Virus record (IMG/VR): IMGVR_UViG_3300021356_000093
Location: 1-31,677 of that record
Length of the DNA stretch: 31,677 nt
Reading direction: 5' to 3' (one strand)
Origin: a virus
Position 1 is the first letter of the stretch. Every line of letters begins with the position of its first letter. This document shows positions 312 to 31,582 of the stretch, piece by piece. The notes beneath the pieces were generated by a model. The model saw only the letters and a list, made by a program, of their open reading frames with translations. It was not told the origin of the DNA and did not search any database. The translations under genes were made by a program, and so were the position numbers.

Positions 312-560
312 TTATTTTTTTGCGAACTTCTCTAATCCAGCAATACCAAATGAACCTAATGTGATTATAACGAATGAGTTGTAAATAAACTCCTGTACCA
401 CTAAGTCTTTACCGAAGTAGCCAGTTACCAAATCTGCCAATGCAAATATTACCATTACTGCGAACGAAAGGAAACCAATTACGTTTTTCTCATTCATATC
501 GTTGTCGTCTTTGAATATATCTTTAAAAGCCATCCAATTACTCCTAATCTTTTGTAACAT
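312..560 (-). CDS. Small two-helix membrane protein of the lysis module
   Basis: 82 aa. A charged N-terminal 25 residues (KIRSNW..KDIFKDDNDMNEKN) is followed by two hydrophobic helices at about residues 27-48 and 57-76, with a short basic C-terminus (EKFAKK). The start has a strong ribosome binding site, AAGGAG, six bases before ATG. It lies 32 bases ahead of the holin-like gene and after a roughly 107-base gap, so it may begin a new transcript. Size and topology fit a holin, antiholin or similar lysis accessory protein, but no family-defining motif is visible and the role is inferred from position. Confidence 0.7.
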   Translation of the reverse strand: MLQKIRSNWMAFKDIFKDDNDMNEKNVIGFLSFAVMVIFALADLVTGYFGKDLVVQEFIYNSFVIITLGSFGIAGLEKFAKK

Positions 561-1261: not shown

Positions 1262-1762
1262 TTACTTTTCTTCTAATAATTGTTTCAGTCGTATCTGTTC
1301 CAATCTCACATCAAAATTCTCTTTCTGAAGCTTTTCAATTTTCTGTTCCAACTCTTCTCTGTACATCTTAGTGATATCTTGTTGTTCTTTATCACTTTTT
1401 TGAGATTCTATTTTTCGGGCGATTCTTCTGATATTACTCAATGCACTAATTGCGATTACAACCCACCCCCAATTCATTGGAGTCCATTGAATTGTATTGG
1501 TTAGGAAGTGAATAAGTACAAAAAGTACAGCCATTCCACTATATCCGATTGCAAATAAACGTCTGGTTTGTAAACTATTATAAACAACCGAGTGTAGAGT
1601 ACCATACCCAATCAACACACTAATAATAGCAACGTACCATAAATCTGGAAAGAACTCAGCTTCCAATACAATGGGAGCGAATATAAGCCATATCAGTCCC
1701 TGCAAAACCTCAGTTGGTTCTGAATCGTGATATGTTAAGATATGCCCTAATTTCTTTATCAT
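1262..1762 (-). CDS. Membrane protein with C-terminal coiled coil
   Basis: 166 aa of unknown family. The N-terminal two-thirds contains about four hydrophobic segments (near residues 20-32, 42-58, 72-88 and 98-110). A charged helix follows from about 117 to the end (KMYREELEQKIEKLQKEN), a likely coiled coil facing the cytoplasm. Its start overlaps the stop of the response regulator (1759-2205) by 4 bases, so translation is probably coupled. It resembles the neighbouring 668-1258 protein in having membrane helices plus a coiled coil, with the order reversed. The two could interact through their coils; that is inference. Confidence 0.75.
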   Translation of the reverse strand: MIKKLGHILTYHDSEPTEVLQGLIWLIFAPIVLEAEFFPDLWYVAIISVLIGYGTLHSVVYNSLQTRRLFAIGYSGMAVLFVLIHFLTNTIQWTPMNWGWVVIAISALSNIRRIARKIESQKSDKEQQDITKMYREELEQKIEKLQKENFDVRLEQIRLKQLLEEK

Positions 1763-2205
1763 TTATATACTTTGAACGGATTTGTTTTATTTACATACCC
1801 ATCATAATCTTCTCTAAATTCTTCTAATCGTGGTTCAATATCATCCGATTTTACTAACCAGAATTGAGCCCCTGCTGCTTTAGCTTTCTCAATCTCTTGG
1901 GTATCATCTGATGATGATATAATACCAATAACACAACCGTTACCATAATCAGTATTAATTTTACGAATCAGCTCAATACCATCAAATGATGAACCTATAA
2001 TGTTCAAATCAACGAAAACACATTCTGGTCTTTCGTGATTAGGGTCATCTGGAAACCATTCTTTGAATTTTCTATCCGCCTCATCCGAAGAGTTGAGTGC
2101 CTCTAATGAAAGAGTTATATCTAAGATGCTACACGCATCCTCAAACACCAAGTGGAATAAATCCTCATCATCCACCAATAAAATTGAGTTAATCATATTG
2201 CTCAT
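1759..2205 (-). CDS. CheY-like response regulator receiver protein
   Basis: 148 aa, a single receiver domain with no output domain. All conserved positions are present: the acidic pair D12-D13 (LLVDDED), phospho-acceptor D66 on strand 3 (VFVDLN), S98/S99 on strand 4 (GIISSSDD) and K119 on strand 5 (FWLVKSDD). A short acidic/proline insert (WFPDDPNHERPE, about 50-61) precedes strand 3. The gene overlaps the histidine kinase stop by 4 bases (ATGA), so kinase and regulator are a cognate pair. With no DNA-binding domain it should signal by protein contact, as CheY does. The adjacent membrane/coiled-coil proteins or host factors are candidate targets. A receiver in a T4-like lysis module is unusual. 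Confidence 0.93.
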   Translation of the reverse strand: MSNMINSILLVDDEDLFHLVFEDACSILDITLSLEALNSSDEADRKFKEWFPDDPNHERPECVFVDLNIIGSSFDGIELIRKINTDYGNGCVIGIISSSDDTQEIEKAKAAGAQFWLVKSDDIEPRLEEFREDYDGYVNKTNPFKVYK

Positions 2206-3452
2206 TTTAACCTTATCCTTAATTTAGTTCCTGGGTTAGTTTTTTCTGCTGTTATATCAAAACCATGTTCTTTTAGAATTGCTATACAAATATTCAATCC
2301 CAAACCTGAACCACTTTCTTTCTGTCCTTGTTTTCTAATGTATGGTTTTGATAAATTCTCAAACTCAGTTTGAGTCATACCTCTACCATTATCCTGTACA
2401 CATAATGTGTTACCATCTTCCATAAATATCATAACAGTTTTCGTTCCACTATCGTTATACTTCAATCCATTACGAATTAAATTATCAATGGCTGTACAAA
2501 AGAGTGGTTCGTTTACATCTATCATTACTAATTCATCAATTACCACCTGTTTTGAGTATGATGTTGATGATAAATAATTTTTCAGTATTTCTCTTAAATC
2601 AACTTCTTTTGTATCCAACTGAACATCTTCTTTTACTAAGTTAGTGAATTCTTTTACACCAGCATAAACCTTCTGAGTGTGTTTTAGCCCTTCATCTAAC
2701 ATTTTAAGTGGTGCTTCAATTTTTAACTCTTTGATTGTTTCATCATTCAATCTTCTTCTAAGAGATGATAATCCTCGTGGCATATAAGTGTTGATACCAC
2801 TATGCATATCGTGTCTAAGAATCTTAGCAGCGTGTTCTAAGTATGAGTTCTTTTGGTTAACTATATCTTCAGCTTCATGTTGTGCAGTAATATCAGTTGC
2901 TATTTTAAGTATCGTATCATATTCACCATTTGAGTTTTTGATTGGTGTATAGTTACCATATAACCATCTCTTTGAACCATCCTTAGCAACTCTCTCAAAC
3001 TCACCAGTTATACTTTCTCCACGTCGTAGGGTTTCCCAAAATTCTAAGTATTCTTTACTTTTAGCGTATTCGGGAGTAACCATCGCAGAATGTGGTTTTT
3101 TAATCATATCCCCCTCTGTACATCCAACTAATTTACAAAAGTTATCATTTGCTTTAATGATGTACCCATCCATTGTTAGTGTAACAACAAGATTAGATTG
3201 ACTGATACCAGCCAACTGAGAGTTTACCTTTTCTTCTCTAATCTTTATATTGTTTACAAACTCGCTTACAACCTTAAAGAATGGAGGCATAAAGAATACA
3301 ACACACCCCCATCCGAACTTAGCAAGAAATAAAGTTGGTTCACATAACCCAAATACAATACACGTTTGTACAGCAAAGAAGGTTAACATAATAACCCCCG
3401 CCACTGCCAAAGAGATTTTGGCGTTTAACGATATCCCATCAAGAGCTTTCAC
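2202..3452 (-). CDS. Membrane PAS-domain histidine kinase
   Basis: 416 aa. Two adjacent membrane helices lie at about residues 12-32 and 46-62, with almost no periplasmic loop. A PAS/PAC domain follows at about 82-192 (MDGYIIKANDNFCKLVG ... DGSKRWLYGNYTPI ... ILKIATDIT). The dimerisation helix has an H-box RHDMH with candidate phospho-histidine H214. The ATPase domain has an N-box with N324/N328 (DNLIRNGLKYN), G1 DNGRGM (354-359) and G2 GSGLGL (381-386). All catalytic elements look intact. It should autophosphorylate and pass phosphate to the overlapping receiver protein (1759-2205). The lack of a sizeable external domain suggests it senses membrane state or a PAS ligand. It lies directly downstream of the DUF2892-like gene and the amidase. 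Confidence 0.95.
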   Translation of the reverse strand: MKALDGISLNAKISLAVAGVIMLTFFAVQTCIVFGLCEPTLFLAKFGWGCVVFFMPPFFKVVSEFVNNIKIREEKVNSQLAGISQSNLVVTLTMDGYIIKANDNFCKLVGCTEGDMIKKPHSAMVTPEYAKSKEYLEFWETLRRGESITGEFERVAKDGSKRWLYGNYTPIKNSNGEYDTILKIATDITAQHEAEDIVNQKNSYLEHAAKILRHDMHSGINTYMPRGLSSLRRRLNDETIKELKIEAPLKMLDEGLKHTQKVYAGVKEFTNLVKEDVQLDTKEVDLREILKNYLSSTSYSKQVVIDELVMIDVNEPLFCTAIDNLIRNGLKYNDSGTKTVMIFMEDGNTLCVQDNGRGMTQTEFENLSKPYIRKQGQKESGSGLGLNICIAILKEHGFDITAEKTNPGTKLRIRLK

Positions 3453-3653
3453 TTAGAGTTCCGATTTCTTAAACCCACATTTAGCGAAGAACCACTTAGA
3501 TGGGCAGAACCCAGTCCACACACCAACGTTCAGCATAAATGTTACAAAAATCACCACACCCCAAGATTGAGTGAAGTACCCTGTTAGTAATACTAACGAC
3601 ATCAACAAATACACCATTCGTGTATCTGTGATACTATTCAATAATTCTTTCAT
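3453..3653 (-). CDS. DUF2892-like small inner-membrane protein
   Basis: 66 aa with two membrane helices (about residues 12-27 and 30-46) and a cysteine-containing C-terminus, GFCPSKWFFAKCGF. The two-helix hairpin followed by GxCPxxxxxxKxG matches the DUF2892/YgaP-type membrane domain. The start has a clear AAGGAG ribosome site. The stop abuts the histidine kinase start (3452), so the two are co-translated. Whether it is a partner of the kinase or a lysis accessory protein is not evident. Confidence 0.75.
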   Translation of the reverse strand: MKELLNSITDTRMVYLLMSLVLLTGYFTQSWGVVIFVTFMLNVGVWTGFCPSKWFFAKCGFKKSEL

Positions 3654-3667
3654 AATTACTCCTTAGT

Positions 3668-3790
3668 TTAAAACATTGTTATGGTGTGCATAAATGCAAT
3701 CCACAATCTAAGTCGTAACCTTTTCCAAAACGATAGTGATTTGAATTCTTCTGTATCGAAGATATCCTCTATTTCCTTAAACTCTTTCAT
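3668..3790 (-). CDS. 40-aa small protein between amidase and DUF2892 gene
   Basis: An ATG at 3790 comes one base after the amidase stop and opens a 40-codon frame ending with TAA at 3668. The product has an acidic first half (KEFKEIEDIFDTEEFKS) and a basic, hydrophobic second half (FWKRLRLRLWIAFMHTITMF) that could be a membrane-anchoring helix. It exactly fills the gap between two lysis-module genes and its position suggests translational coupling. The composition looks protein-like. No family is recognised. Confidence 0.5.
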   Translation of the reverse strand: MKEFKEIEDIFDTEEFKSLSFWKRLRLRLWIAFMHTITMF

Positions 3791-3791
3791 A

Positions 3792-4673
3792 TTACAACCC
3801 CGCCAACATATCTAATAGTTCCTGTTGTGGGAACATATCGAATTTATCTTTGCGGGTGTTTGTGTGAGTCCACACACCTTTAATTCTACCATAGTATGCA
3901 TCTTCATTGAATTCAAATGCATCAGCACCTTTTTCTTTAACCAATGTTGGTAATCCAGCTCTGATATCAATACCATCTCTTTCACCAATCCAAAGAATCC
4001 ACTTTCTGAGTGCTTCGATTTGGTCATCTGAATATCTGTGCCAAGTTTTGAATCCTCTGAATGGTTTATCTAATTCAACCAACTGTGATTCGTGTACTCT
4101 GGTTCCCGCATATGTTTTACCATCCTTAACGTATCCAAAGTTACATACTTCGATACCTACTGAATGTGTATGCATGTGTTGTGAACCATTCTTTCCCAAG
4201 TGCCATCCATATGCACCTTCTGGAAATGCTTGAACCATTACACCATCGTATGATTCATCATTTCCCTTTACCGACGGTCCACCCAATACAAATTCAGTTG
4301 CAACAGCACCACGAGAATCTCTACCCCATTGGTCTATACAATTGTATGGATTGTGCCATCCAGCAGTATGATGTAAGAAACAATATTCTTTATTTGTTGG
4401 GCCTGATTTATATTCCCCAACTGGAAGGAAATGTCTGTTTACGATTAAACCATTTTCCGTTTCGTATGTTTTTTCAGAATCATCAGTAGTAGCGATACCC
4501 ATACAATCCCAAGTGGCAGGGCCAACAATACCATCAGCAACCAGACCGTTGATTTTTTGAAACTCTTTAACTGCTGCCTCAGTTCCCTTACCGAAAATCC
4601 CATCTGCTCCAATCCCAAGAAATTCTTGTAATAATTTTACTTCATTTCCACGTGAACCAACTTTTAATAACAT
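3792..4673 (-). CDS. Endolysin: peptidoglycan-binding domain plus N-acetylmuramoyl-L-alanine amidase
   Basis: 293 aa. Residues 1-57 form a PG_binding_1 domain (GSRGNEVKLLQEFLGIGADG ... GPATWD). From about 90 to 285 there is an Amidase_2/PGRP-type domain, with a zinc-ligand region FLHHTAGWH (H101/H102), the core strand HSVGIEVCNFG (about 170-180) and a late histidine VWTHTNTRKDKFD (H270). It should cleave the amide bond between muramic acid and the stem peptide and act as the phage endolysin. No signal peptide is visible, so export would need a holin, and candidates lie downstream. The start has an excellent GGAGG site. The N-terminal wall-binding domain is common in phage amidases. Confidence 0.94.
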   Translation of the reverse strand: MLLKVGSRGNEVKLLQEFLGIGADGIFGKGTEAAVKEFQKINGLVADGIVGPATWDCMGIATTDDSEKTYETENGLIVNRHFLPVGEYKSGPTNKEYCFLHHTAGWHNPYNCIDQWGRDSRGAVATEFVLGGPSVKGNDESYDGVMVQAFPEGAYGWHLGKNGSQHMHTHSVGIEVCNFGYVKDGKTYAGTRVHESQLVELDKPFRGFKTWHRYSDDQIEALRKWILWIGERDGIDIRAGLPTLVKEKGADAFEFNEDAYYGRIKGVWTHTNTRKDKFDMFPQQELLDMLAGL

Positions 4674-6836: not shown

Positions 6837-7922
6837 TTACAAGAGATGTGGTTTAGCTTCGCTAATACCACTATTAGTTACAATCACATATTGTGGCATG
6901 TACTCTCTGAGATTCTCTGCTCCGGCATAAGATAGTGCCGATTTAACACCATCCAACAGCCCATTGATGATAAACTTAACACCACCCTTATATGGGATTG
7001 TAGTGGATTCACCTTCAACATTTCTTGCTTCTTGCCCATGTGTTACTTTGGTTTCCAACGAAGCAGAACCTCTGTATCTCTTATACAGCCCATTTGGTGT
7101 TTCTACAATCTGACCAGGTGCTTCATCAGTTCCAGCTAATAATGAACCTAACATCACACAATCAGCACCAACTGCCAATGCTTTTGCAATATCACCACTC
7201 GTTCTGATACCACCATCTGCCATAACTGGTGTGGTTGCTACCAAATCAACTTCTTTTAAAGATGTTACGTTTGGAACACCGAATCCGGTCTTAACTCTGG
7301 TCGTACAAAGTGAACCCCCGCCAATACCAACTCTCAATCCATCGGCACCTGCTTCTTCTAATCTTTCTGCTGCTTCAGCTGTTGCAATGTTTCCAGCGAT
7401 AATATCAACGTGAGATGATAACATCCGCTTGCACCAAATAACCATATCTAAAACATTCTGGTGGTCACCATGTGCTACATCAATAAGAAGAACATTTGCT
7501 CCCGCATTAACGAGAGCGTTAGCTCTATCCTTATCCTCTTCCTGAACACCGATTGCTGCCATAATTGGAATCTTACGTTCTTCAGCGTGCCAATCATCGT
7601 ACATTACTCCCCAAGTTTCGGCTAATCCAAAATCATCTGAGTAGAATGATTCTTTCAATCTGCTCACAATATCACATTGCCTTTCGATACTCATAAATCT
7701 GTGAATGCACCCCACACCACCAAGTTCTGCCATTTTGTATGCCATATCAAATTCACATACTGTATCCATAGGTGATGCTACAATTGGTCGTAGTAATCCA
7801 TATCTTCTACTCAACTTAGTGTTTAAGTTGATTCCTTTTCTCGATTTGATTTCTGAGAATTTTGGTACGAGTTGAATATCATCATAGGTTAACGCATAAC
7901 CATTATCATTTGTGTAGTTCAT
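6837..7922 (-). CDS. GMP reductase/IMP dehydrogenase family enzyme
   Basis: 361 aa, a TIM-barrel of the IMPDH/GMPR family with no CBS domains. Signatures: LTYDDIQLVP near the N-terminus, ASPMDTV (49-55), the catalytic cysteine loop GGGSLCTTRVKTGFG (C206) and the phosphate-binding region MADGGIRTSGDIAKALA (234-250). The KTGxG after the Cys loop, the absence of the IMPDH flap Arg-Tyr motif, the EGESTTIPYKGGV segment and the length (about that of GMPR) favour GMP reductase (GMP + NADPH to IMP + NH3). IMP dehydrogenase is not excluded. It is the last gene of the glycan operon, sharing TAATG with the sialyltransferase-like gene. The usual GPGS is GGGS here. Confidence 0.88.
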   Translation of the reverse strand: MNYTNDNGYALTYDDIQLVPKFSEIKSRKGINLNTKLSRRYGLLRPIVASPMDTVCEFDMAYKMAELGGVGCIHRFMSIERQCDIVSRLKESFYSDDFGLAETWGVMYDDWHAEERKIPIMAAIGVQEEDKDRANALVNAGANVLLIDVAHGDHQNVLDMVIWCKRMLSSHVDIIAGNIATAEAAERLEEAGADGLRVGIGGGSLCTTRVKTGFGVPNVTSLKEVDLVATTPVMADGGIRTSGDIAKALAVGADCVMLGSLLAGTDEAPGQIVETPNGLYKRYRGSASLETKVTHGQEARNVEGESTTIPYKGGVKFIINGLLDGVKSALSYAGAENLREYMPQYVIVTNSGISEAKPHLL

Positions 7923-8539
7923 TATCTGTATATTTTTATTACGTTTTTGGTTTCATATTCTTTGAATATCTCCTTCTCTGCATCAAAGGAGTGCATATTT
8001 CCAGGAATAACACTTTCCCAATAATGCCTTCTTTTATTTTCTATATTACCATGGTCAAACCCAAAAACAGATATTTTATCTGAATATGTTACTGCTATCA
8101 GTAATCCAAGAAACCCAACTGATGGGTGGGTATTTATAAAAGAACCCCCCCACTGGATATAACCTTCTGAAATAAAGTTTATATAGTTTTTATTTAGATT
8201 TGATAATACCCCTTTGTGAAATTCTTGCCAATTGTAACCCTTAACAAAAAAGTGCTCACCGACCAAAGATGATATAAAGTTGGGGTCATGATTCTCAAAT
8301 CGTTTTGGGTCTGATGTCCCCGCAAAGCAATGGCCGTTCATAATACGAATATCTGTACGACTACCTACGTGTTTTTCATATCCTAAAGTTCGTGCTGCAT
8401 TAAATCTAATAATGGTATCATGCTCATCAATTAAACTACCATATTCCATATCTAATAGAATACCACTACTACCAACAAGAGCTACGGAGCCGATATTGTT
8501 AAAGTTATAAGAGGATATATTTTGTAACTCTAAATTCAT
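7922..8539 (-). CDS. GT29 sialyltransferase-like protein
   Basis: 205 aa, resembling family GT29 sialyltransferases. The L-motif-like region is at 18-62: SVALVGSSGILL, IDEHDTIIRFNAA, GYEKHVGSRTD. The S-motif-like region is at 138-162: THPSVGFLGLLIAV and KISVFGFD. A final HYWE (172-175) matches the VS motif. GT29 enzymes transfer sialic acid or a related sugar from a CMP-activated donor. A CMP-sugar synthetase overlaps it directly (ATGA at 8539-8536), so donor synthesis and transfer are co-expressed. No signal anchor is present, unlike the eukaryotic enzymes, so it is probably cytoplasmic. It is short for the family. Confidence 0.85.
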   Translation of the reverse strand: MNLELQNISSYNFNNIGSVALVGSSGILLDMEYGSLIDEHDTIIRFNAARTLGYEKHVGSRTDIRIMNGHCFAGTSDPKRFENHDPNFISSLVGEHFFVKGYNWQEFHKGVLSNLNKNYINFISEGYIQWGGSFINTHPSVGFLGLLIAVTYSDKISVFGFDHGNIENKRRHYWESVIPGNMHSFDAEKEIFKEYETKNVIKIYR

Positions 8540-9216
8540 TGGTTCATCATAAATTCTGCCAAATCAAACTCAAATTGAGTATCAATATCGATTGAACGAT
8601 TTCTAGGCATAAAATATCCCTTCGTTTGACCTACATAGTAATTTTTATTTTCCCTAAGTTTTGAAGTCCAAGACCCATATAATGCTCCATTTGGTCTGTA
8701 CACCATTGGGTGGTCTTGACTTCTACTATTACCATTCTGCCACGGTTGAGTCTGGTCGTAATCTTCTATAATATTGTTACCCTTAACAACCAATCCCAAC
8801 GTTGGTGGAAACTCCATTTCAGTATATGATAGAACTGAATCGCTATCCTCATCTAACAACTCAGATGCTTTTACAAAATCATCGGATACTTTCATAGGTG
8901 AAGTTGGTAGAGTCAGCCAAATTTGCTCATAATCATCATCAATAAAGTGTAACACAGTATCAATCACTTTAGAAGTATCGGTTGCTAAATCATCAGGACG
9001 CTTAACAACATCTAAAATTGTTGATGAGTAGTTTTTAGATACTAATGACAGAATCTCATCATCATCTGATGTAAATATTACTTTATCAAACACTTTAGAA
9101 TTTATCACAGAATCAATGGTGTAGAACACCAATGGTTTACCATTCAATGGTCGTATATTCTTACGAGGCAATCTTTTACTTCCCCCACGAGCAGGAATTA
9201 TGCATAATCTTTTCAT
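8536..9216 (-). CDS. neuA: CMP-acylneuraminate/nonulosonate cytidylyltransferase (NeuA-type)
   Basis: 226 aa. Motifs: the N-terminal nucleotide-binding loop IIPARGGSKRLPRKNI (6-21), GKPLVFYTID, TSDDDEIL, LPTSPM, YRPNGALYGS (about 174-183) and the C-terminal SIDIDTQFEFDLAE. The ARGGSKRxPRKN loop and the RPNGA segment are those of NeuA-type CMP-sugar synthetases; KdsB has a different loop (PARYxSTRxPGKP). It should couple CTP with a nonulosonic acid to give a CMP-sugar for the overlapping GT29-like transferase. Which acid it accepts is unclear, because the only synthase nearby is KdsA-like. Confidence 0.92.
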   Translation of the reverse strand: MKRLCIIPARGGSKRLPRKNIRPLNGKPLVFYTIDSVINSKVFDKVIFTSDDDEILSLVSKNYSSTILDVVKRPDDLATDTSKVIDTVLHFIDDDYEQIWLTLPTSPMKVSDDFVKASELLDEDSDSVLSYTEMEFPPTLGLVVKGNNIIEDYDQTQPWQNGNSRSQDHPMVYRPNGALYGSWTSKLRENKNYYVGQTKGYFMPRNRSIDIDTQFEFDLAEFMMNQ

Positions 9217-9218
9217 TT

Positions 9219-9794
9219 TTATGTTTTTCTATTTGCGTTTATTTTTTTGTCTAAATTAGTTAATACAACATCTTCGACATCGTGGTCTAAAAATTCTGAT
9301 AACTTCTTTATTTCTTTTTTATCTCCACTAAAAAACTTTTCAAAATTTATAACGGTTAAATTTACAATCCCCTCACTTAATTTTTTAGTGGAATAGTGAT
9401 TAATTACTTCTTCATCAATATTGCCATTATCTATTTTTTTTTGAAGAAAAAATTCTGATGCCTTATGCCTTTTACGACTTTTAATTAAATCATCTAAATT
9501 ACGTTCAAAAACTAAAACATCATTGTAATTATATTTTTCTAAAAGTTCAAAAAGTTTTTTATGTCTAAGTTTTGTAAAAAGTTCATTTGAAATAAAATGG
9601 TCATCAAACTTGTTATAATAATTCAATATATTTTCACAACCCTTTTCAACGCTTTGATTCAAATATAATTCAGTGTGTTTATCTGTGCTCTTATTAATAT
9701 TTCTACCTTTATAATTGGGTACTTTAGGAAAAACAATTTGCTGTAGAAATGTTGAGCCTGCTTTGTGAAATCCAATATGTATTTTTTTTCCCAT
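9219..9794 (-). CDS. Sulfotransferase-like protein
   Basis: 191 aa. The N-terminus IHIGFHKAGSTFLQQIVF (5-22) matches the 5'-phosphosulfate-binding loop of PAPS-dependent sulfotransferases (HxKxGTTxLQ, with S for the first T). Later features are VFERNLDDLIKSRKRHK (about 94-110), which could hold the 3'-phosphate-binding Arg/Ser, and LTVINFEKFF near the C-terminus. It is lysine- and asparagine-rich and more AT-rich than its neighbours. In this operon it may sulfate the glycan. The family call rests on the loop; the remainder is divergent. Confidence 0.68.
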   Translation of the reverse strand: MGKKIHIGFHKAGSTFLQQIVFPKVPNYKGRNINKSTDKHTELYLNQSVEKGCENILNYYNKFDDHFISNELFTKLRHKKLFELLEKYNYNDVLVFERNLDDLIKSRKRHKASEFFLQKKIDNGNIDEEVINHYSTKKLSEGIVNLTVINFEKFFSGDKKEIKKLSEFLDHDVEDVVLTNLDKKINANRKT

Positions 9795-9830
9795 TTATTT
9801 TAAATTAAAAGTACCAAATCTATTTTGATA

Positions 9831-10517
9831 TCAATCGTTTTTTATAATATAACTACCAAATTTACTTCTATCAGTTCGTAAGAAATGAGTACCAAAATAT
9901 CCATCAATTTCAGAACTGTATGAGCTAACATCATCTATAATATTTCTATCACTTAGAATTTCCAAAAAATCTTCAGATATTTTTGAATTAACGTGTATAG
10001 GGTCCGCTTTCCAATCTTTAGCTTTGTAACTATTTTTGGTTCTAAGTTCGCTATCAATAGTTTTTGAAAATACATCTATCACCATATCACCATATCTCTG
10101 TTTTAGCAAATTGTTAAAATACAATAGTGCTGGTTGGATTGGGTCATAAGCTCCTGTGGGTGTGATAATATAATCGATACTTTCTAATTCTAAATTAGAT
10201 ATGTTATCTAAACACTCATTTAAGTACCTCTCATCAACATAAGGTTTTACTTCCAATCCCTTATGTAACTCATCCCAATGAGGTGTCCAGTGCTTTTTTA
10301 TTGGGAATCTACAATTTGGTTCACCCAAATACAGAAAAGTTAAACATTCAGATTTATCAATATTTGATAATACTTTTTTGATTTTTGTGTTTACTTCTGT
10401 TATATTGGATTTATCAAGATTTATATACATTCCCGAACCCATAAAGAATGGGAAAATGTTTTTACGATAAGCAAAACTTCGAGTATGTGATTCTCCTAAA
10501 ATAACTAAGTTTTTCAT
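9831..10517 (-). CDS. SGNH/GDSL hydrolase-like protein
   Basis: 228 aa from ATG 10517, one base after the upstream stop. A start at 10550 would add 11 unlikely residues overlapping the FkbM gene. The N-terminus NLVILGESHTRSF has the SGNH block-I look, with S10 as the candidate nucleophile, although GESH replaces GDS. The C-terminal KADPIHVNSKISEDFLE gives the D-x-x-H dyad. Such proteins remove or transfer acyl groups on glycans. Between sugar-synthesis and decoration genes, an O-acyl esterase or acyltransferase role is plausible. The 10550 start remains possible. Confidence 0.62.
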   Translation of the reverse strand: MKNLVILGESHTRSFAYRKNIFPFFMGSGMYINLDKSNITEVNTKIKKVLSNIDKSECLTFLYLGEPNCRFPIKKHWTPHWDELHKGLEVKPYVDERYLNECLDNISNLELESIDYIITPTGAYDPIQPALLYFNNLLKQRYGDMVIDVFSKTIDSELRTKNSYKAKDWKADPIHVNSKISEDFLEILSDRNIIDDVSSYSSEIDGYFGTHFLRTDRSKFGSYIIKND

Positions 10518-10518
10518 T

Positions 10519-11220
10519 TTATCTTTTCTTGAATATTGAGGTTTGGCCAATATTAGTTATGTGGAAGTGGGGTAAATATTTTTGATGGATATCTTTTCTA
10601 TTATACTTACTATCATTGTACGATTCGTGAAACTCTACAACCATTGCATTAAAGTTCTTAAAATAGTCAAACATATAGTAAAGGAGGTCATATTCTTCGC
10701 CTTCGATATCACAACTTAAAAATGTAAATTTCTTATTGTATTGGCGTTCCAAATCAAGTGGTGTCACAGTCTCCATATTCACCGATGTGTACTTACCCCA
10801 AGCAGTATCATTACCCTCAAGATGTTTTTTTCTAATTATGGAACCTGATAAACTCAATCCATTATAGTTAAAATTTACAATTCTATTGTTATACGATACG
10901 GGTGCATTTTTGATATCAAACAAAAAGTTGTTAATATCTCTATTGTGTTTAATGTTTTCGATTAGAGTGGGATTTGCTTCTACTGCAACAAGATTGCTAC
11001 TATCGGATATCAAACTTGCAATAATACAAGAGGTAACACCAAGACTTGAACCTAAATCAAGAACAACATCCGATTCGGATATTGCATTTCGCACCCCCAC
11101 AATTTCTTCCTGTTCATATGTACCCAAACTAAGTCGGTTTTGAACTGGTGTGTTTTTCTGGTATTTCAAATTTTCATTGAAAATTGATATTTTTACTCCA
11201 TTATATTCAAGATTTACCAT
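10519..11220 (-). CDS. FkbM-family methyltransferase
   Basis: 233 aa. SAM-binding motif I is VVLDLGSSLGVTSCIIA (about 50-66), motif II is NLVAVEANPTLIENI (the acidic residue binds the ribose), and the FkbM-type late motif is LSCDIEGEEYDLLYY (about 168-182), followed by VVEFHES. FkbM enzymes O-methylate sugars and polyketides. The gene lies 10 bases after the dioxygenase gene and directly before the SGNH gene in the glycan operon, which suggests O-methylation of a glycan residue. Its substrate cannot be read from sequence. Confidence 0.88.
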   Translation of the reverse strand: MVNLEYNGVKISIFNENLKYQKNTPVQNRLSLGTYEQEEIVGVRNAISESDVVLDLGSSLGVTSCIIASLISDSSNLVAVEANPTLIENIKHNRDINNFLFDIKNAPVSYNNRIVNFNYNGLSLSGSIIRKKHLEGNDTAWGKYTSVNMETVTPLDLERQYNKKFTFLSCDIEGEEYDLLYYMFDYFKNFNAMVVEFHESYNDSKYNRKDIHQKYLPHFHITNIGQTSIFKKR

Positions 11221-11230
11221 AATATGTTAT

Positions 11231-11902
11231 TTATTTACAATGTGCTCTAACTACTAATCTACTTTTACCATCTTCACACTCACCACCTTTGTGAAAGGTA
11301 TCTGTATCAAATACAATCATCGTACCCGCCTTAGCTTCTACAGGTTCAAATGGGTACTCATCCTTTAATTCGGGATAATCCAATTCAATTCGGTTGAGTA
11401 CAGTTTCGTAATCTTTAGAAGACCATGCCGATTCTCTTAACTCCTTACCCTTACTTCTGGAGCCAGGAGATACACTAAATGCCCCATTAGTTTTATCTAC
11501 ATCTGTAAGATACACAAAAAACTTCAAGCAATTAGTTCTATCAAAATGTAACCAACCATTTCTAGCTAAACCCTCATCACTTTTGTAATCATATGTTGCA
11601 TAAATTGAACTACAAAACCCAGTATCAGTACCACGATAAATTTTATCTAGTGCTCGCATCCAATCGGAATCATACAACTTATGTGTATAGCTATCAGTTG
11701 AGAAAGATTTAAGAGATGGCCCTCTGTAGTTTCTACCGAACTCATAGTGTCCGCCTTGAGATTCACATAAATCTAAAACTTCATCGTGCAATCCGCTAAG
11801 AAAATCACCAGTAACGTATTCGTTTATTAGAAATACACCATCTGATTTTAATAACTCTACCATATCTGATATAGTAGCACCTTCTTCTAATCTCTTAATC
11901 AT
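11231..11902 (-). CDS. PhyH-like 2-oxoglutarate/Fe(II) dioxygenase
   Basis: 223 aa. The iron facial triad is clear: H119 and D121 in WLHFDRT, and H204 in DTFHKGG, with R215 (KSRLVVRA) placed to bind 2-oxoglutarate. The segment TNGAFSVSPGSRSK between them is typical of phytanoyl-CoA dioxygenase (PhyH)-like enzymes. It would hydroxylate a small molecule or glycan precursor. Its start overlaps the kdsA stop by 4 bases. PhyH-like enzymes occur in bacterial sugar and natural-product clusters. Hydroxylation of the operon's acidic sugar or a carrier is an inference. Confidence 0.88.
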   Translation of the reverse strand: MIKRLEEGATISDMVELLKSDGVFLINEYVTGDFLSGLHDEVLDLCESQGGHYEFGRNYRGPSLKSFSTDSYTHKLYDSDWMRALDKIYRGTDTGFCSSIYATYDYKSDEGLARNGWLHFDRTNCLKFFVYLTDVDKTNGAFSVSPGSRSKGKELRESAWSSKDYETVLNRIELDYPELKDEYPFEPVEAKAGTMIVFDTDTFHKGGECEDGKSRLVVRAHCK

Positions 11903-12657
11903 TTTATCTCATCTTTTAACAAATCTACCATCTCACCCAAAGGTAATACAGAATCAGCATCCGAATATGAAAGAGGTGGGTTTGGGTGTGCCTCTGCAAA
12001 TACACCATCGTAATTGAATATATCAGTTGCCTTAAAATATCTTGCTGCTAAAGTCGGATTACCACCCATTCTACCGTTTGGTTTTGGTAGTTGTGCTGAG
12101 TGTGTTGTATCAAAGATAACTTTATCGAAGTGTTCTTTCATAAAGTCAACACTTGAGAAATCAACAACAAACTGAGAGTATCCGAATGCAGAACCTCTTT
12201 CAGTAACCCAAACACTACAATCTGGGTTTGTATTTTTCAACTTATCAATACCCTTTACCATATTTTGTGGGTTCATCCACTGTCCCTTTTTGATATTTAC
12301 TTCATTGGAAAGTCGAGCAGACTCAACCAACAAATCAGTCTGTCTACATAGAAACGCCGGAATTTGGATTAGGTCCACTACATCAGAAATCTTTTCTACT
12401 TGATGTGTTTCATGTACATCGGTTGTAACTTTAAGACCTGGAAAATCCTTCTTCAGTTGTTTAAAAATCTCCATGCCCTCTTCCAATCCAGGTCCCCGTT
12501 GACCTGTGATTGAACTCCTATTCGCCTTATCGTAAGAACCTTTAAAATAAAAATTCTTATCTTTCACATATGGGTAAACCGCCGCTAATACTTCGTATGA
12601 TAGCTCATACTTTTCTAAACTACACGGACCTATGATATATACTTTATCCTTATTCAT
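11899..12657 (-). CDS. kdsA: KDO-8-phosphate synthase (KdsA-like)
   Basis: 252 aa, a DAHP/KDO8P synthase TIM barrel. Key features are IIGPCSLEKYEL (about 8-19), the KdsA-specific YFKGSYDKANRSS and GPGLEEG, TTDVHETHQ, IPAFLCRQTDLL, RGSAFGYSQFVVD, FDTTHSAQLP and AEAHPNPPLSYSDADSVLPL. Together these identify KdsA rather than NeuB. The reaction is PEP + D-arabinose 5-phosphate to KDO 8-phosphate. It is about 30 residues shorter than E. coli KdsA. It overlaps both neighbours by 4 bases, next to a HAD phosphatase-like gene (a KdsC-like step) and an aldolase. A specificity shift to another aldose phosphate is possible. Confidence 0.93.
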   Translation of the reverse strand: MNKDKVYIIGPCSLEKYELSYEVLAAVYPYVKDKNFYFKGSYDKANRSSITGQRGPGLEEGMEIFKQLKKDFPGLKVTTDVHETHQVEKISDVVDLIQIPAFLCRQTDLLVESARLSNEVNIKKGQWMNPQNMVKGIDKLKNTNPDCSVWVTERGSAFGYSQFVVDFSSVDFMKEHFDKVIFDTTHSAQLPKPNGRMGGNPTLAARYFKATDIFNYDGVFAEAHPNPPLSYSDADSVLPLGEMVDLLKDEIK

Positions 12658-13535
12658 AATACTTTATTTACTGCATTTATAATTTGTTGCTTCTGCTCTT
12701 CAGTTGGCTGTTTAAACGGGTTTCTATCAAATTTAATATATCCCATATGTTTTAGTGCTGTTCTCATAGATAGGTGCCACCCATTCTTCATAAAAATATC
12801 AAACAGTGGGGTTTCAACAGTTCTGATTATCTTATGTGCTTGTGTATGTTGTGAATCAAAATAATCATCATAGAATATCTCTTCCCACACCGGATTAAAT
12901 GAACCGACCCCAACTAAATAAGTAGTAGCACCATGTGGTTGAAGAGCCCAAAATCGTTTCATACTTCCACCAGCTACAATTACCTCTAAATTAGATGGAA
13001 TATTAGTTGTAGAGTGCATTAGATTACCTGCTTCTTCTTTCATACCAATGAACCCATCTATTTCCGATAATCTATCCAATAAGGGTTTGCTGTATTCATA
13101 TGAACCACCCATTCCCTTTTTAAGTATGTTACCATGCACAAGAATATCAAAATTAGATTTTGAACAAATTTCTTCAAAAAACTCTACAATCTGGTCATCA
13201 TCATAGTATCTCTCAGGAAATAAAATTAGTAGAGAAGTGTCCATTGGTTCAAAATTAGAATTCATCCAATCTATTTCTTCTAATAAATGTTTTGTACTCA
13301 ATGGGGGTAATCCCAATATCTTTTCTCCATCAAAACTAGATACGATGGTATTTAACTTCCGAACCTCATCAACCGAAAGTAGGTTGTATTGAGATGTTCC
13401 AGCAGTAGTCATTGCTATTTGTGCTCCAGTACCACTCAAATACTGAATGTACTTTTTAGTAGATTCTAAATCTAAGTTCTCATGCACATCGAATGATGGT
13501 GGTATTGGATATACAGGCGCTCTGAATTTATTCAT
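12654..13535 (-). CDS. N-acetylneuraminate lyase/dihydrodipicolinate synthase family aldolase
   Basis: 293 aa, the usual length for the pyruvate-dependent class I aldolases. The N-terminal barrel has IAMTTAGTSQYNLLSVDE (about 40-57, equivalent to GTTGE..tLs..E). The Schiff-base lysine is K166 in GFIGMKEEAGN. The normal YNxP tyrosine region is replaced by VHGNILKKG (about 133-141), so substrate handling may differ from typical NAL or DapA. In this operon it probably forms or cleaves a 2-keto-3-deoxy sugar acid rather than making lysine precursors. It overlaps kdsA and the HAD gene by 4 bases each. Confidence 0.87.
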   Translation of the reverse strand: MNKFRAPVYPIPPSFDVHENLDLESTKKYIQYLSGTGAQIAMTTAGTSQYNLLSVDEVRKLNTIVSSFDGEKILGLPPLSTKHLLEEIDWMNSNFEPMDTSLLILFPERYYDDDQIVEFFEEICSKSNFDILVHGNILKKGMGGSYEYSKPLLDRLSEIDGFIGMKEEAGNLMHSTTNIPSNLEVIVAGGSMKRFWALQPHGATTYLVGVGSFNPVWEEIFYDDYFDSQHTQAHKIIRTVETPLFDIFMKNGWHLSMRTALKHMGYIKFDRNPFKQPTEEQKQQIINAVNKVL

Positions 13536-22149: not shown

Positions 22150-23079
22150 TTATCCTTTTATATCAATTAAAATTTCCAACAACATAGCTACGATGTTGAT
22201 TTCCTTATCTACAACCGATGCATCTTTGTATTGTGCATCTGCAATTTTAAGTATGGTGTTACCTACCTTTCCATTTGCGAAATCTTCCACATTATCATAT
22301 AAGAATCTGTAGAATGGTGTGAAATCCTTCACTTTAGAATCTGCAATAATCTGTCTGGTTTTTAGGAACAACTCCTTCACATTACCATCTGATTTGAGTA
22401 CGGTCAATACCTCATCCATATAGTTTGCCTGAATTGTAGATGTTTTATCAATCTTCAACTCACCACCAATAACTTGCCGCTGTCCTGCGTTTAGAACTCT
22501 ACGAATATCAGGATACCCACTATTCACCAAAATAGCCAAATCACCCATCTCATAATTCACTCCCTCAATATCTAAGATTTCTTTCAAGCGAATCGCAACT
22601 TCTTTCTTAGATGGTGGAGTGATTCCGAATGTCTGACATCTACTTTGAATTGGGTCGATGATTTTCTCAACATAATTACACGTCAAAATGAATCTGGTTG
22701 TTCGAGAGAACGTTTCCATCAGATTACGAAGTGCTGCTTGAGCGTTTGGTGTCAAGTAGTCCGCCTCATCCAAAATAATCACTTTCCACTTACGGAATCC
22801 CATAGAAGATGCGAATCCTCTAATCTTATCCCTTACCGTATCAACATTGTTTTCATCCGATGCGTTGATGTACATCACATCACAATCAATCTGATTAGTG
22901 ATGATTTTAGCCAATGTGGTTTTACCAGTACCCGCTTGTCCGTACAATAGAAGATGGGGAACATCTTCATTCTCAATGTAAATCTTTACCTTTTCAAGAA
23001 TGTGTTCGTTACCAACGTAACCCTCTAATGTGTCTGGGCGGTACTTCTCAACCCATAATGTATTTTCTGTGCTATTCAT
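22150..23079 (-). CDS. 44: Clamp loader ATPase subunit (gp44/RFC-like)
   Basis: 309 aa, an AAA+ ATPase. Signatures: EKYRPDTLEGYVG, Walker A YGQAGTGKTTLA (46-57), Walker B VIILDEAD (100-107), sensor 1 ILTCNYVEKI and the SRC motif IQSRCQ (144-149). The C-terminal third is the alpha-helical collar domain. It uses ATP to open and place the sliding clamp. It starts one base into the DUF4338 gene stop and is followed by the Zn-ribbon and gp62-like genes. Confidence 0.96.
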   Translation of the reverse strand: MNSTENTLWVEKYRPDTLEGYVGNEHILEKVKIYIENEDVPHLLLYGQAGTGKTTLAKIITNQIDCDVMYINASDENNVDTVRDKIRGFASSMGFRKWKVIILDEADYLTPNAQAALRNLMETFSRTTRFILTCNYVEKIIDPIQSRCQTFGITPPSKKEVAIRLKEILDIEGVNYEMGDLAILVNSGYPDIRRVLNAGQRQVIGGELKIDKTSTIQANYMDEVLTVLKSDGNVKELFLKTRQIIADSKVKDFTPFYRFLYDNVEDFANGKVGNTILKIADAQYKDASVVDKEINIVAMLLEILIDIKG

Positions 23080-24287
23080 TATCTTCCGACTTCTTTTAAG
23101 TACTTATTTTTCATTTCATCCCAACTCATACCAATCGCATCGATATAAAACAAATGTTCTGGCTTTAATCTACCCTCTGAATGTAGTTTTGTGTATCGTT
23201 TGATTGCTTTTTTCTTCCACCACTTACTGATATAATCCACACCCTCTTCGAACTTTTGCTTCATCTTCAAATCATCTTCTCCGATTTCATCACGCAAAAA
23301 CTCAGGTCCGTTTTCATACATCATAGCGAGATATACACCTCTCTTAAATCCGTGGTGGTAATCAGATTGCTTGATACCACATTCTTTGAAAATCTGCCCT
23401 AATATCTTTTGTTTGATACCACTCACAGGTCCACTAGCAACACCCATACTTTTTCCATTTCGGATTCTTTCATTTGTGATTGCTTCGGTGTACCACTCTG
23501 ACCTTTCTTCTTTCAACCATTGATGCCAAGGTTCGTAATACTTATCATCTGGTTTGATAGAAATCTTTCCTGCCGATTCGCCCAATGTTTTGAAATGAGG
23601 TATCCCATTGTATTGAGAGTGAATCCCATATAGAGATGTAGTTCCAACTGCTATAAGGGTTTGGCCATACTTCTCTTTCCAAAACTCTCTTACTTCAGGA
23701 ACAGTAGTCATCATAGCAACCAACTTACCTCCTAAGAAGTTATAACCCAATGGTTGAGTACAAACAATAGTCGATGCGATTGTGGTATGGTTGAGTTTAC
23801 CTTTTTTAAACTTATCATCTTTACTCCATCCGATATAATCATCTCTAACTTTCATTGATGTTACATCTGATGCCAATGATATTTGCCCTAAGAGTTTACC
23901 CGTAACCCTATCCTTAACATTAATCTTAACGTTACGACCTGGATTTGCGGTAAATCCCATAGTATGAATCATTCGTCTGAGATACGCCCACTTTGTGGAA
24001 TCCTTACCATCTTCGATAATTTCAACGTAGGGTTCTAATGCTTCAATTTCTTTAATGGTTTGTTCAACATTATTGATATCACTCGGTGCCCATTGTGTAT
24101 CATACAATTCGGCAATCTGTGATTTATCCCTAATCATAGAAGGTTCTTGTAACTCTACCCATTTCTTGTATAGAGTTTGCTCTTCAACACTCATCTTAGA
24201 AAGATAATCCATATTTTCGATTAGCTCTCTCTTTTGAGTTTCAAAGTCAAAGACTGGTTTGGCTGGTTCGGTATCCCAAAAACTCAT
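23079..24287 (-). CDS. DUF4338/DruA-like protein inside the replisome operon
   Basis: 402 aa. About residues 128-216 carry a pattern I recognise from DUF4338 (the DruA protein of Druantia defence): GKLLGQISLASD, VRDDYIGWSKDDKF, LNHTTIASTIVCTQP, LGGKLVAMMTT, VREFWKEKYGQTLIAVGTTSLYG. The N-terminal 110 residues are helical (EEQTLYKKWVELQEP) and the C-terminal 170 are rich in aromatic and basic residues. It lies between clamp and clamp loader genes, so it is expressed with the replisome. DUF4338 has no established activity that I know. The order of its motifs parallels Mom/GNAT proteins, so an acyltransferase or DNA-modification role is conceivable. Confidence 0.72.
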   Translation of the reverse strand: MSFWDTEPAKPVFDFETQKRELIENMDYLSKMSVEEQTLYKKWVELQEPSMIRDKSQIAELYDTQWAPSDINNVEQTIKEIEALEPYVEIIEDGKDSTKWAYLRRMIHTMGFTANPGRNVKINVKDRVTGKLLGQISLASDVTSMKVRDDYIGWSKDDKFKKGKLNHTTIASTIVCTQPLGYNFLGGKLVAMMTTVPEVREFWKEKYGQTLIAVGTTSLYGIHSQYNGIPHFKTLGESAGKISIKPDDKYYEPWHQWLKEERSEWYTEAITNERIRNGKSMGVASGPVSGIKQKILGQIFKECGIKQSDYHHGFKRGVYLAMMYENGPEFLRDEIGEDDLKMKQKFEEGVDYISKWWKKKAIKRYTKLHSEGRLKPEHLFYIDAIGMSWDEMKNKYLKEVGR

Positions 24288-30039: not shown

Positions 30040-30840
30040 TTACCAAAAACTTTCAGTATTCTCAGCCACATAAGTAGTTTTATGATTCACAACCTCTGTA
30101 TTGAAATCATCCGTATTCTTTGGATATGGTTTGATTTCATGCTTCAATCGTTTTATCAAATCTTTCTTCTCTTTTTTGTTTTGTGGTAATAGTTGGATGT
30201 ATCTGTGCTTTGGCGGCTCCATTCTTCTCCAAAATTCACTATGTCCCTCTTTACCGATTTCATTTTTAAGATGGTCTAAATTGGAACTACCCCAAAGCGA
30301 ATATACCGTTCTACTATGAATCCAATTATATGGGTCTTTTGTAAGTGAGATACCATAGTTTGGCATTAGTGCGATATCGGTTGATAGCCCTTGATAAATC
30401 CAATTAGTTGCCTGATAAATCTTACCTAAGTGTTCTTGTCCCGCATCAGCATATGATATCAACAACTTAATGTTCTTATCATTATCCTTTAACCATTTGA
30501 ACGTTTGCCCCATTGCATATGATTCGATGTTTGAACCATACCCATCATCAATGTACAACCTGGTTAATTCTAATGCATTATCTTTGGTTAATCCTTCACA
30601 AACAGAGGTTGCTGCTCTTGCTCCAACGGGGAATCCATATATTGCACATCCAATGAGTTTATCTTCTCCAAACTGAAATGAATCACCATCAGTTTTGTAG
30701 TAGATTCCCAATGCGTACCTACACGCAGTCCAAGCGTGAGTGTAGTGCTTCTTAACGATGATATCCTTAGCAATTGATTTTGCTATTGGTGCTACATGCA
30801 CTTTAGATACATCACAATATATTTTACCGTCCTCTTTCAA
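30040..30840 (-). CDS. Mom-like DNA modification protein, copy A
   Basis: 266 aa. GNAT-type Mom-family pattern: HY (32-33), KLIGCAIYGFPVG (61-73), LELTRLYIDDGYGSN (90-104), ISYADAGQEHLGKIYQATN (128-146). In phage Mu, Mom converts adenine to a carbamoylmethyl form that resists restriction. The start is TTG at 30840, chosen because its N-terminus (MKEDGKIYCDVSKV) aligns with copy B; this gives a 17-base overlap with copy B. Residues 1-151 align without gaps to copy B. The C-terminal 110 residues diverge more. Reaction and target base are inferred. Confidence 0.82.
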   Translation of the reverse strand: MKEDGKIYCDVSKVHVAPIAKSIAKDIIVKKHYTHAWTACRYALGIYYKTDGDSFQFGEDKLIGCAIYGFPVGARAATSVCEGLTKDNALELTRLYIDDGYGSNIESYAMGQTFKWLKDNDKNIKLLISYADAGQEHLGKIYQATNWIYQGLSTDIALMPNYGISLTKDPYNWIHSRTVYSLWGSSNLDHLKNEIGKEGHSEFWRRMEPPKHRYIQLLPQNKKEKKDLIKRLKHEIKPYPKNTDDFNTEVVNHKTTYVAENTESFW

Positions 30841-31582
30841 TTGGTTCTAATTTATGTACTTCCATCTCAACATCCTCACTTCCCTTTGGATATGGGAACG
30901 ATGGGTGCTTTAAATTCTTCAATAGTTTTCTACGTTCACCACCTTTAGCCAATATGTAAACGTATCTGTGTTTTCTTGGTTCTTTACGAATCCAAAAGGG
31001 TTTATTTACCTGCTCTTGTATTTTCTTAGGGTCGTTTGTTTTGTATTGTGGGAATATGGTTTTACCATGTATCCACCTCCCATCTTCTTCAAACTTAAAA
31101 CTCCAACTATCGTTGAATCTGAGTTTGTTACCCTGATAAATCCAATTAGTTGCCTGGTAGATTGTTCCAGCATGCCCTTCTTTTGGGTCTGAGTAGGATA
31201 TGAGTGCTTTTACTTTTGGAGCGTTTGTTCTCAACCAATCAAATGTTTGGGATAAGAACCAACTCTCAATATTTGAACCATACCCATCAAAAACAAACAA
31301 CCGAACCAATTCTAATACTTCAGTTCTATCTAACGTTTCTGATATGGATTGTCCTGTTAATCTACCAATTGGGTCACCATAACATGCAACTCCAATCAAC
31401 TTATCTGTTGAACCAAAGAACTGATGTGATTCATCTTCAACGTATAATCCCAATGCGTATGATACCTTTGTCCACAACCCACTATAATGGTTGTTGATTA
31501 TGATATCTTTTGCTACCGATTTAGAAATCGGTCGGACTGATAGTTTAGATATATCACAATAGTTCTTTCCTTCTTCTTTCAT
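30824..31582 (-). CDS. Mom-like DNA modification protein, copy B
   Basis: 252 aa, a paralog of the next gene, alike throughout the first 151 residues (HY 32-33, KLIGVACYGDPIG 61-73, LELVRLFVFDGYGSN 90-104, ISYSDPKEGHAGTIYQATN 128-146). YSDPxxGHxGTIYQATN is the strongest Mom-family segment. Both copies keep the His/Tyr, Arg and Asp-type conserved positions, so both may be active. They may act on different sites or as a heterodimer. Its ATG shares a base with the preceding stop (TAATG). Confidence 0.84.
   Translation of the reverse strand: MKEEGKNYCDISKLSVRPISKSVAKDIIINNHYSGLWTKVSYALGLYVEDESHQFFGSTDKLIGVACYGDPIGRLTGQSISETLDRTEVLELVRLFVFDGYGSNIESWFLSQTFDWLRTNAPKVKALISYSDPKEGHAGTIYQATNWIYQGNKLRFNDSWSFKFEEDGRWIHGKTIFPQYKTNDPKKIQEQVNKPFWIRKEPRKHRYVYILAKGGERRKLLKNLKHPSFPYPKGSEDVEMEVHKLEPIERGR

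Follow-up and report, generated by a model that had tools for sequence, protein, structure and literature searches.

A near-obligate histidine kinase, receiver, and coiled-coil membrane protein triad in uncultured phages and its repeated association with lysis genes

A histidine kinase (HK), a lone response-regulator receiver (RR), and a coiled-coil protein with two transmembrane (TM) helices (CC) form a near-obligate three-gene signaling module in phages, and the 31,677-nt IMG/VR virus fragment analyzed here (the window) carries one copy of it. The triad is repeatedly, although not universally, found beside lysis genes. Our best reading, to which we assign a probability of about 0.5, is that it is a phage phosphorelay whose membrane-effector output tunes lysis. 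An earlier note on this DNA had taken the HK-RR pair as the unit; the pair is indeed complete and conserved, but what is conserved as a unit is three genes, with both HK and CC present at 202 of the 213 RR loci in our combined set.

The replication genes of the window include clamp-loader subunits and a B-family polymerase of the T4 kind, which is about 33% identical to cyanophage gp43 and 48.6% identical to the polymerase of Microcystis phage Mel-JY01. On the minus strand, the gene order is amidase endolysin, 40-aa open reading frame (ORF), 66-aa TM protein, HK, RR, a protein that we call m166, CC, 82-aa holin-like protein, and partial holin (Table 1). The HK and RR genes share a 4-nt overlap, and since the genes from the 66-aa protein through CC overlap or abut, they are probably cotranscribed. 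The pair thus has an amidase endolysin on one side and a PF05105-type holin on the other, much as the earlier note had described, but it is not directly downstream of the endolysin, from which it is separated by the 66-aa TM protein and the 40-aa ORF. In sister loci, the gap held here by that ORF (3668-3790) is occupied by a PF05105-type holin. A full-length relative of the partial holin (locus L059) scored 28.1 bits against the PF05105 cutoff of 22.2 and matched the PHROG 199 holin family, and hhalign (97%) relates the 82-aa holin-like protein to another small family found near the triad. In the first survey, m166 was present in 26 of 82 loci and the 66-aa membrane protein in 46 of 82; searches of Pfam and PHROG returned no clear family for the former and no family match for the latter.

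Table 1. The triad and its neighboring genes in the window
Feature	Coordinates	Strand	Remarks
HK, histidine kinase	2202-3452	minus	416 aa, GTG start; triad gene 1
RR, lone receiver	1759-2205	minus	148 aa; triad gene 2
CC, coiled-coil two-TM protein	668-1258	minus	Triad gene 3; proposed output
m166	1262-1762	minus	Multiple TM helices and C-terminal coiled coil, by inspection; between RR and CC
66-aa small membrane protein	3453-3653	minus	Immediately upstream of HK
40-aa ORF	3668-3790	minus	Hydrophobic C-terminal stretch
Endolysin, PG_binding_1 and Amidase_2	3792-4673	minus	Pfam 9.5e-15 and 2.9e-8; PHROG endolysin 5.1e-16
82-aa holin-like two-TM protein	312-560	minus	hhalign
Partial holin, PF05105 Phage_holin_4_1/PHROG 199 family	1-300	minus	Runs off contig end

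At the level of sequence, HK and RR have the hallmarks of a two-component system, namely, a kinase with His, N, G1, and G2 motifs and a receiver with an acidic pair, Asp, Ser/Thr, and Lys. Pfam assigned HATPase_c (6.6e-15) and PAS_3 (2e-14) to HK and Response_reg (4.6e-8) to RR; the HK dimerization domain had no HisKA match in Pfam. HK comprises two predicted N-terminal TM helices (by inspection), a PAS domain, a dimerization helix bearing H214 (LRHDMHSGIN), and HATPase_c. It retains H214, N324/N328, D354-G358, and G381-G385, and RR retains D12/D13/D66/S97/K119; across 173 full triples, these residues were invariant, with the exceptions of N324 (172/173) and G381 (160/173). The AlphaFold model of RR is a lone (beta-alpha)5 receiver without an output domain (pLDDT, 86.5), and its closest fold in the PDB is Rcp1. 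An intact membrane PAS kinase overlapping a receiver that lacks an output domain, as first noticed in the letters alone, is therefore borne out by the Pfam matches, the residues, the 4-nt overlap, and the model. RR is the most conserved of the three proteins, with a mean column identity of 87% over 27 rows; in 82 nonredundant triples, mean identity was 76% for RR, 59% for the HK core, and 56% for CC, and RR identity remains at least 60% across two deep viral clades.

We used HK, CC, and RR as separate IMG/VR queries, and all three retrieved the same cassette. HK matches occurred in at least 596 IMG/VR stretches, and homologous loci number in the hundreds with the same gene order in those examined, which is far beyond chance. 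Ten of the 11 RR loci without a full triad are cut by a contig end. The other, L205 (amidase, RR, and CC at L205:36-2020), is the sole locus with enough upstream sequence yet no HK beside RR. Among 66 further loci reached via CC, RR was found in 65, and the exception starts 108 bases from a contig end. Of 24 long contigs read piece by piece, 23 had a called RR, each with both HK and CC near it. CC is the gene directly after RR in 116 of 134 loci; in the remainder, one or two genes intervene. The HK-RR-CC order was constant in the first survey, whereas m166, the 66-aa protein, and the lysis genes were variable. Natural RR-CC or HK-RR fusions were not found among the triad loci examined. Distance correlations among HK, RR, and CC were only moderate (r, 0.44 to 0.58) and are left out of the evidence.

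Sensor composition differs among phages. Some triads contain PAS-PAS or GAF-PAS kinases, and some phages, many of them large, carry two HKs in tandem that have the same kinase core, together with a single RR and a single CC. The extra kinase, which stands beside the membrane HK, has a signal peptide, a periplasmic part, and one TM helix or is soluble. With varied sensor sets and a single RR and CC, the output is more constant than the input. Several other genes lie among those for the kinases and receiver: a homing-endonuclease-like gene (phrog_314; 5.5e-20 for L239) inserted between the second HK and RR (L239:5273-5995 and L191:3324-4046), a 541-aa protein with WYLNGKxHREDGPA-like repeats between HK and RR (L066:9245-10870), and a secreted-looking protein of ∼200 aa, with no family match, between two HKs (L182:3938-4540; also in L198, L192, L207, L239, and L191).

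CC begins with a 75-aa N-terminal domain (LEGNILK...KRLxxTKQxQxQNKEL), continues as a long coiled coil into TM1, and ends with a very short loop and TM2. Its AlphaFold2 model, from which the helix pattern alone was used (pLDDT, 81.8; pTM, 0.35), has helices at residues 3-18, 26-29, 37-156, and 162-194, the long one being ∼120 residues and reaching into TM1. TM2 is the most conserved segment of CC (0.92), above the coiled coil and the N-terminal domain, in the 82 nonredundant triples. There was no PDB fold match at an E value of ≤0.001, the Pfam match to PF23809 (E value, 0.0097) was below the cutoff, and CC has a single confident viral match, to an uncharacterized phage protein with 49% identity. 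We rejected CC as a holin homologue, given hhalign values of 1.0% and 3.9% against the two neighboring holin-like families; the earlier note had proposed that the pair might gate a holin/antiholin. As CC is not recognizable as a holin, it may help, restrain, or time a separate holin or otherwise affect the membrane, and since separate holin and lysin genes lie beside the triad, neither role needs to be filled by the triad itself. A protein of ∼177 aa and no known family follows CC in 36 of the 82 loci of the first survey (for example, L081:7551-8084).

A bacterial relative offers a clue to the partner of the receiver. Locus L144, from Bacteroidetes, is an HK-RR-HK locus in which the HK core is 55% identical to a phage HK and RR is about 67 to 70% identical to phage RRs (67% to that of the window). 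The gene after RR begins with the CC N-terminal domain (33% identity over 143 aa; E value, 2e-17) and continues into HisKA-like (just under the Pfam cutoff) and HATPase_c kinase regions, in contrast to phage CC, which ends in a TM hairpin. In an alignment of the L144 protein with ten viral proteins, 16 positions of the 75-aa domain are invariant. Given this fusion to a second HK, and the near-obligate linkage in phages, we propose the CC N-terminal domain as the RR partner; the simplest reading of the sequences is that it would be a docking partner of the receiver, linked with a membrane hairpin in the phage proteins and with a kinase in the bacterial one. The receiver had been expected to act by contact, and it now has a specific candidate partner in CC, encoded directly after RR or one or two genes on.

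The triad spans two deep viral clades and contigs of about 4 to 430 kb. Its contexts include T4-like ones with RNR and a DnaB-type helicase, baseplate genes, head and tail genes of another type, and contigs of jumbo-phage size. Neither RR nor CC was found in 50,697 deposited phage genomes, where HK had weak generic kinase or PAS matches only, and plasmids yielded generic receivers and no triad. Among 84,980 species genomes of bacteria and archaea, the HK patterns recovered three loci: two are on contigs of Bacteroidetes MAGs, and the third is on a phage-like contig from another bin. A wide bacterial origin was rejected, as a strong RR-profile match was confined to the two source MAGs among 395 phylum, 291 order, and 196 family genomes sampled (the order sample was run twice, apparently as the same set except for the center genome), and a profile search of the sampled Bacteroidota genomes found the CC N-terminal domain in only one. 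The two bacterial copies form one cluster in the tree, placed near the midpoint with a viral superclade on either side. The pair, which recurs at hundreds of viral loci but hardly ever in bacteria, is thus not a recent host insertion absent from related phages, the outcome that would have counted against the original proposal. Signal peptides ending before Q are a Bacteroidetes signature, and those encoded in triad loci end in this way; Shine-Dalgarno use is weak (9 of 42 starts). Together with the Bacteroidetes MAGs, these features suggest that the hosts of triad phages are Bacteroidota.

Endolysins near the triad belong to four unrelated catalytic families (Amidase_2, GH19, M15_3, and phrog_3000), each of which is found both upstream and downstream of it. 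We searched 42 long contigs for these families; eight had no lysin of the four, and among the 29 nonredundant contigs with a lysin, it lay within 3 kb of RR in 16, against 2.19 expected and with none of 200,000 simulations as high, an enrichment that is inflated because the families were picked after being seen near triads. For this reason, a family-blind test was run on 20-kb pieces of 24 of the long contigs, covering, at a distance of 4 kb, the 30 families that occurred in five contigs or more; these contigs overlap those of the four-family test and share ancestry with them. After HK, RR, and CC themselves, the top family was the GH19 endolysin (6 of 8 within 4 kb versus 0.72 expected; P = 1e-5), followed by a holin-like 81-aa protein (5 of 7 versus 0.79 expected; P = 3e-4) that looks similar to the 82-aa holin-like protein of the window (312-560). 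Next came a 115-aa membrane protein (P = 0.006) and the phrog_3000 lysins (P = 0.0085), and the rest were near expectation.

A lysin is found within 5 kb of the triad in 26 of 55 nonredundant loci whose flanks are complete, and a lysin or holin-like gene in 32; the contigs share ancestry, and many are fragments. About half of the complete nonredundant loci have none of the four lysin families within 5 kb. The triad of one T4-like group is flanked by other small genes on one side and baseplate genes on the other, and that of another group is placed between tail and head genes. The wiring of the pair to lysis, as originally suggested from a single locus, is therefore supported as a strong and repeated tie (16 of 29 contigs) but not as a universal one (26 of 55 loci).

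A phosphorelay that tunes lysis could work as follows. HK would autophosphorylate at H214 upon a membrane, redox, or ligand state perceived via its TM helices and PAS domain, and the phosphate would pass to D66 of RR. Phosphorylated RR would then bind the 75-aa N-terminal domain of CC, and binding would be relayed along the coiled coil to the TM hairpin with its near-invariant second helix. Finally, the hairpin may assist, block, or time membrane permeabilization and hence the release of whichever endolysin the phage carries. We infer all four steps from gene-level facts, with confidence falling in the order given: the phosphate steps draw on two-component chemistry and the intact residues, and the relay and lysis steps draw on location and the conservation of TM2. 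Two kinases feeding one RR and one CC would fit a node at which a decision is taken, for instance on when to lyse or on inhibiting lysis once superinfection occurs.

Much of this evidence could also be accommodated by a membrane-state or superinfection exclusion system, in which phosphorylated RR drives CC to block injection or protect membrane energy and the lysis genes are neighbors simply as fellow late membrane-acting functions. The nearly invariant TM helix of CC, the many small membrane proteins nearby, the triad contexts without a nearby lysin, and kinases whose periplasmic parts could sense incoming phages would all suit such a role. We nevertheless consider it unlikely, as the enrichment near the triad of a holin-like family, and of lysins that belong to four unrelated families and lie to either side of it, favors a closer tie to lysis.

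Two further readings seem more doubtful still. The pair might rewire host two-component signaling or jam it, the latter an alternative offered in the earlier note, with RR giving phosphate to host proteins or draining it from them; as a lone receiver resembling Rcp1, RR could talk to host kinases, and both HK and RR have Bacteroidetes relatives. Those relatives are very rare, however, and an RR that keeps at least 60% identity between two deep clades suggests fixed phage partners over varied host ones. A dedicated third gene, kept in essentially all loci, and branched sensor sets that feed one RR also argue against jamming, which is thus quite improbable. Similarly low odds attach to a transcriptional or developmental switch, for example one governing the onset of late genes, in which CC would be a relay tethered to the membrane. 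One T4-like group does have the triad near baseplate genes and a gp55-late-sigma-like gene (by inspection; no family match), but RR and CC have no DNA-binding output and the window shows no excess of T4-type late promoter motifs (TATAAATA, 3 sites versus 4.6 expected).

We found no earlier description of the triad in the open-access papers searched. Like bacterial lone-receiver two-component systems of the Rcp1/CheY/Spo0F type, the triad has H, N, G1, and G2 motifs in HK and a (beta-alpha)5 receiver with D/D/D/S/K; unlike them, it is phage encoded and includes a coiled-coil two-TM protein of no known family, and its receiver is more conserved than its kinase. T4 lysis inhibition by RI/RIII and T, which to our knowledge involves no kinase and no receiver, is the nearest functional analogue. 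There, phage sensing sets lysis time via membrane and periplasmic proteins, with RI acting by direct binding to the holin T (PMC8385771, PMC11413866). The Clostridium difficile phage phiCDHM1 likewise encodes a histidine kinase, in an agrBDC set with the signal genes AgrB/AgrD and no response regulator (PMC3901668), whereas the window has RR and the neighboring window proteins scanned against Pfam and PHROG include no AgrB/AgrD family. HK genes, sometimes two, also occur in uncultivated marine pelagiphages, where the available part of the report ties them to a curli (T8SS) cluster and mentions no response regulator or CC-like gene (PMC9599517). A survey of jumbo phages described a divergent receiver that was never found with HKs (PMC7824862).

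More broadly, and with somewhat less than even odds, we suggest that the triad represents an undescribed class of virus-encoded signaling, a near-obligate circuit of HK, RR, and membrane effector that integrates one or more sensors and decides lysis in a large radiation of uncultured phages, probably of Bacteroidota. The choice of lysis time has been described mainly in phages like T4 and lambda, in which holin/antiholin contacts operate without kinases. If the suggestion is right, phages of a large uncultured group use their own phosphorelay for this choice, which would open a direct route to studying how marine and lake viruses perceive the physiology of their hosts. It would also add a new membrane output for a lone receiver, with lysis timing testable by point mutants of H214 and D66. 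A complete phage two-component system with a dedicated membrane partner, present at hundreds of viral loci, appears undescribed in the open-access papers searched even if its output is something other than lysis.

Several other minus-strand genes of the window merit mention. A DruA-like protein (PF14236, 8.5e-22) is encoded at 23079-24287 in the T4-type replication cluster, between a clamp-loader ATPase gene and a clamp-like gene (the latter by inspection). A sugar/nucleotide cluster at 6837-13535 contains IMP dehydrogenase, a CMP-sugar-type cytidylyltransferase, and NeuB/KDO-8P synthase-like and aldolase-like genes (the last two by inspection). Two similar adjacent genes lie at 30040-30840 and 30824-31582, and the match of the first to the Mom family (PF25680, 5.5e-45) hints at DNA base modification.
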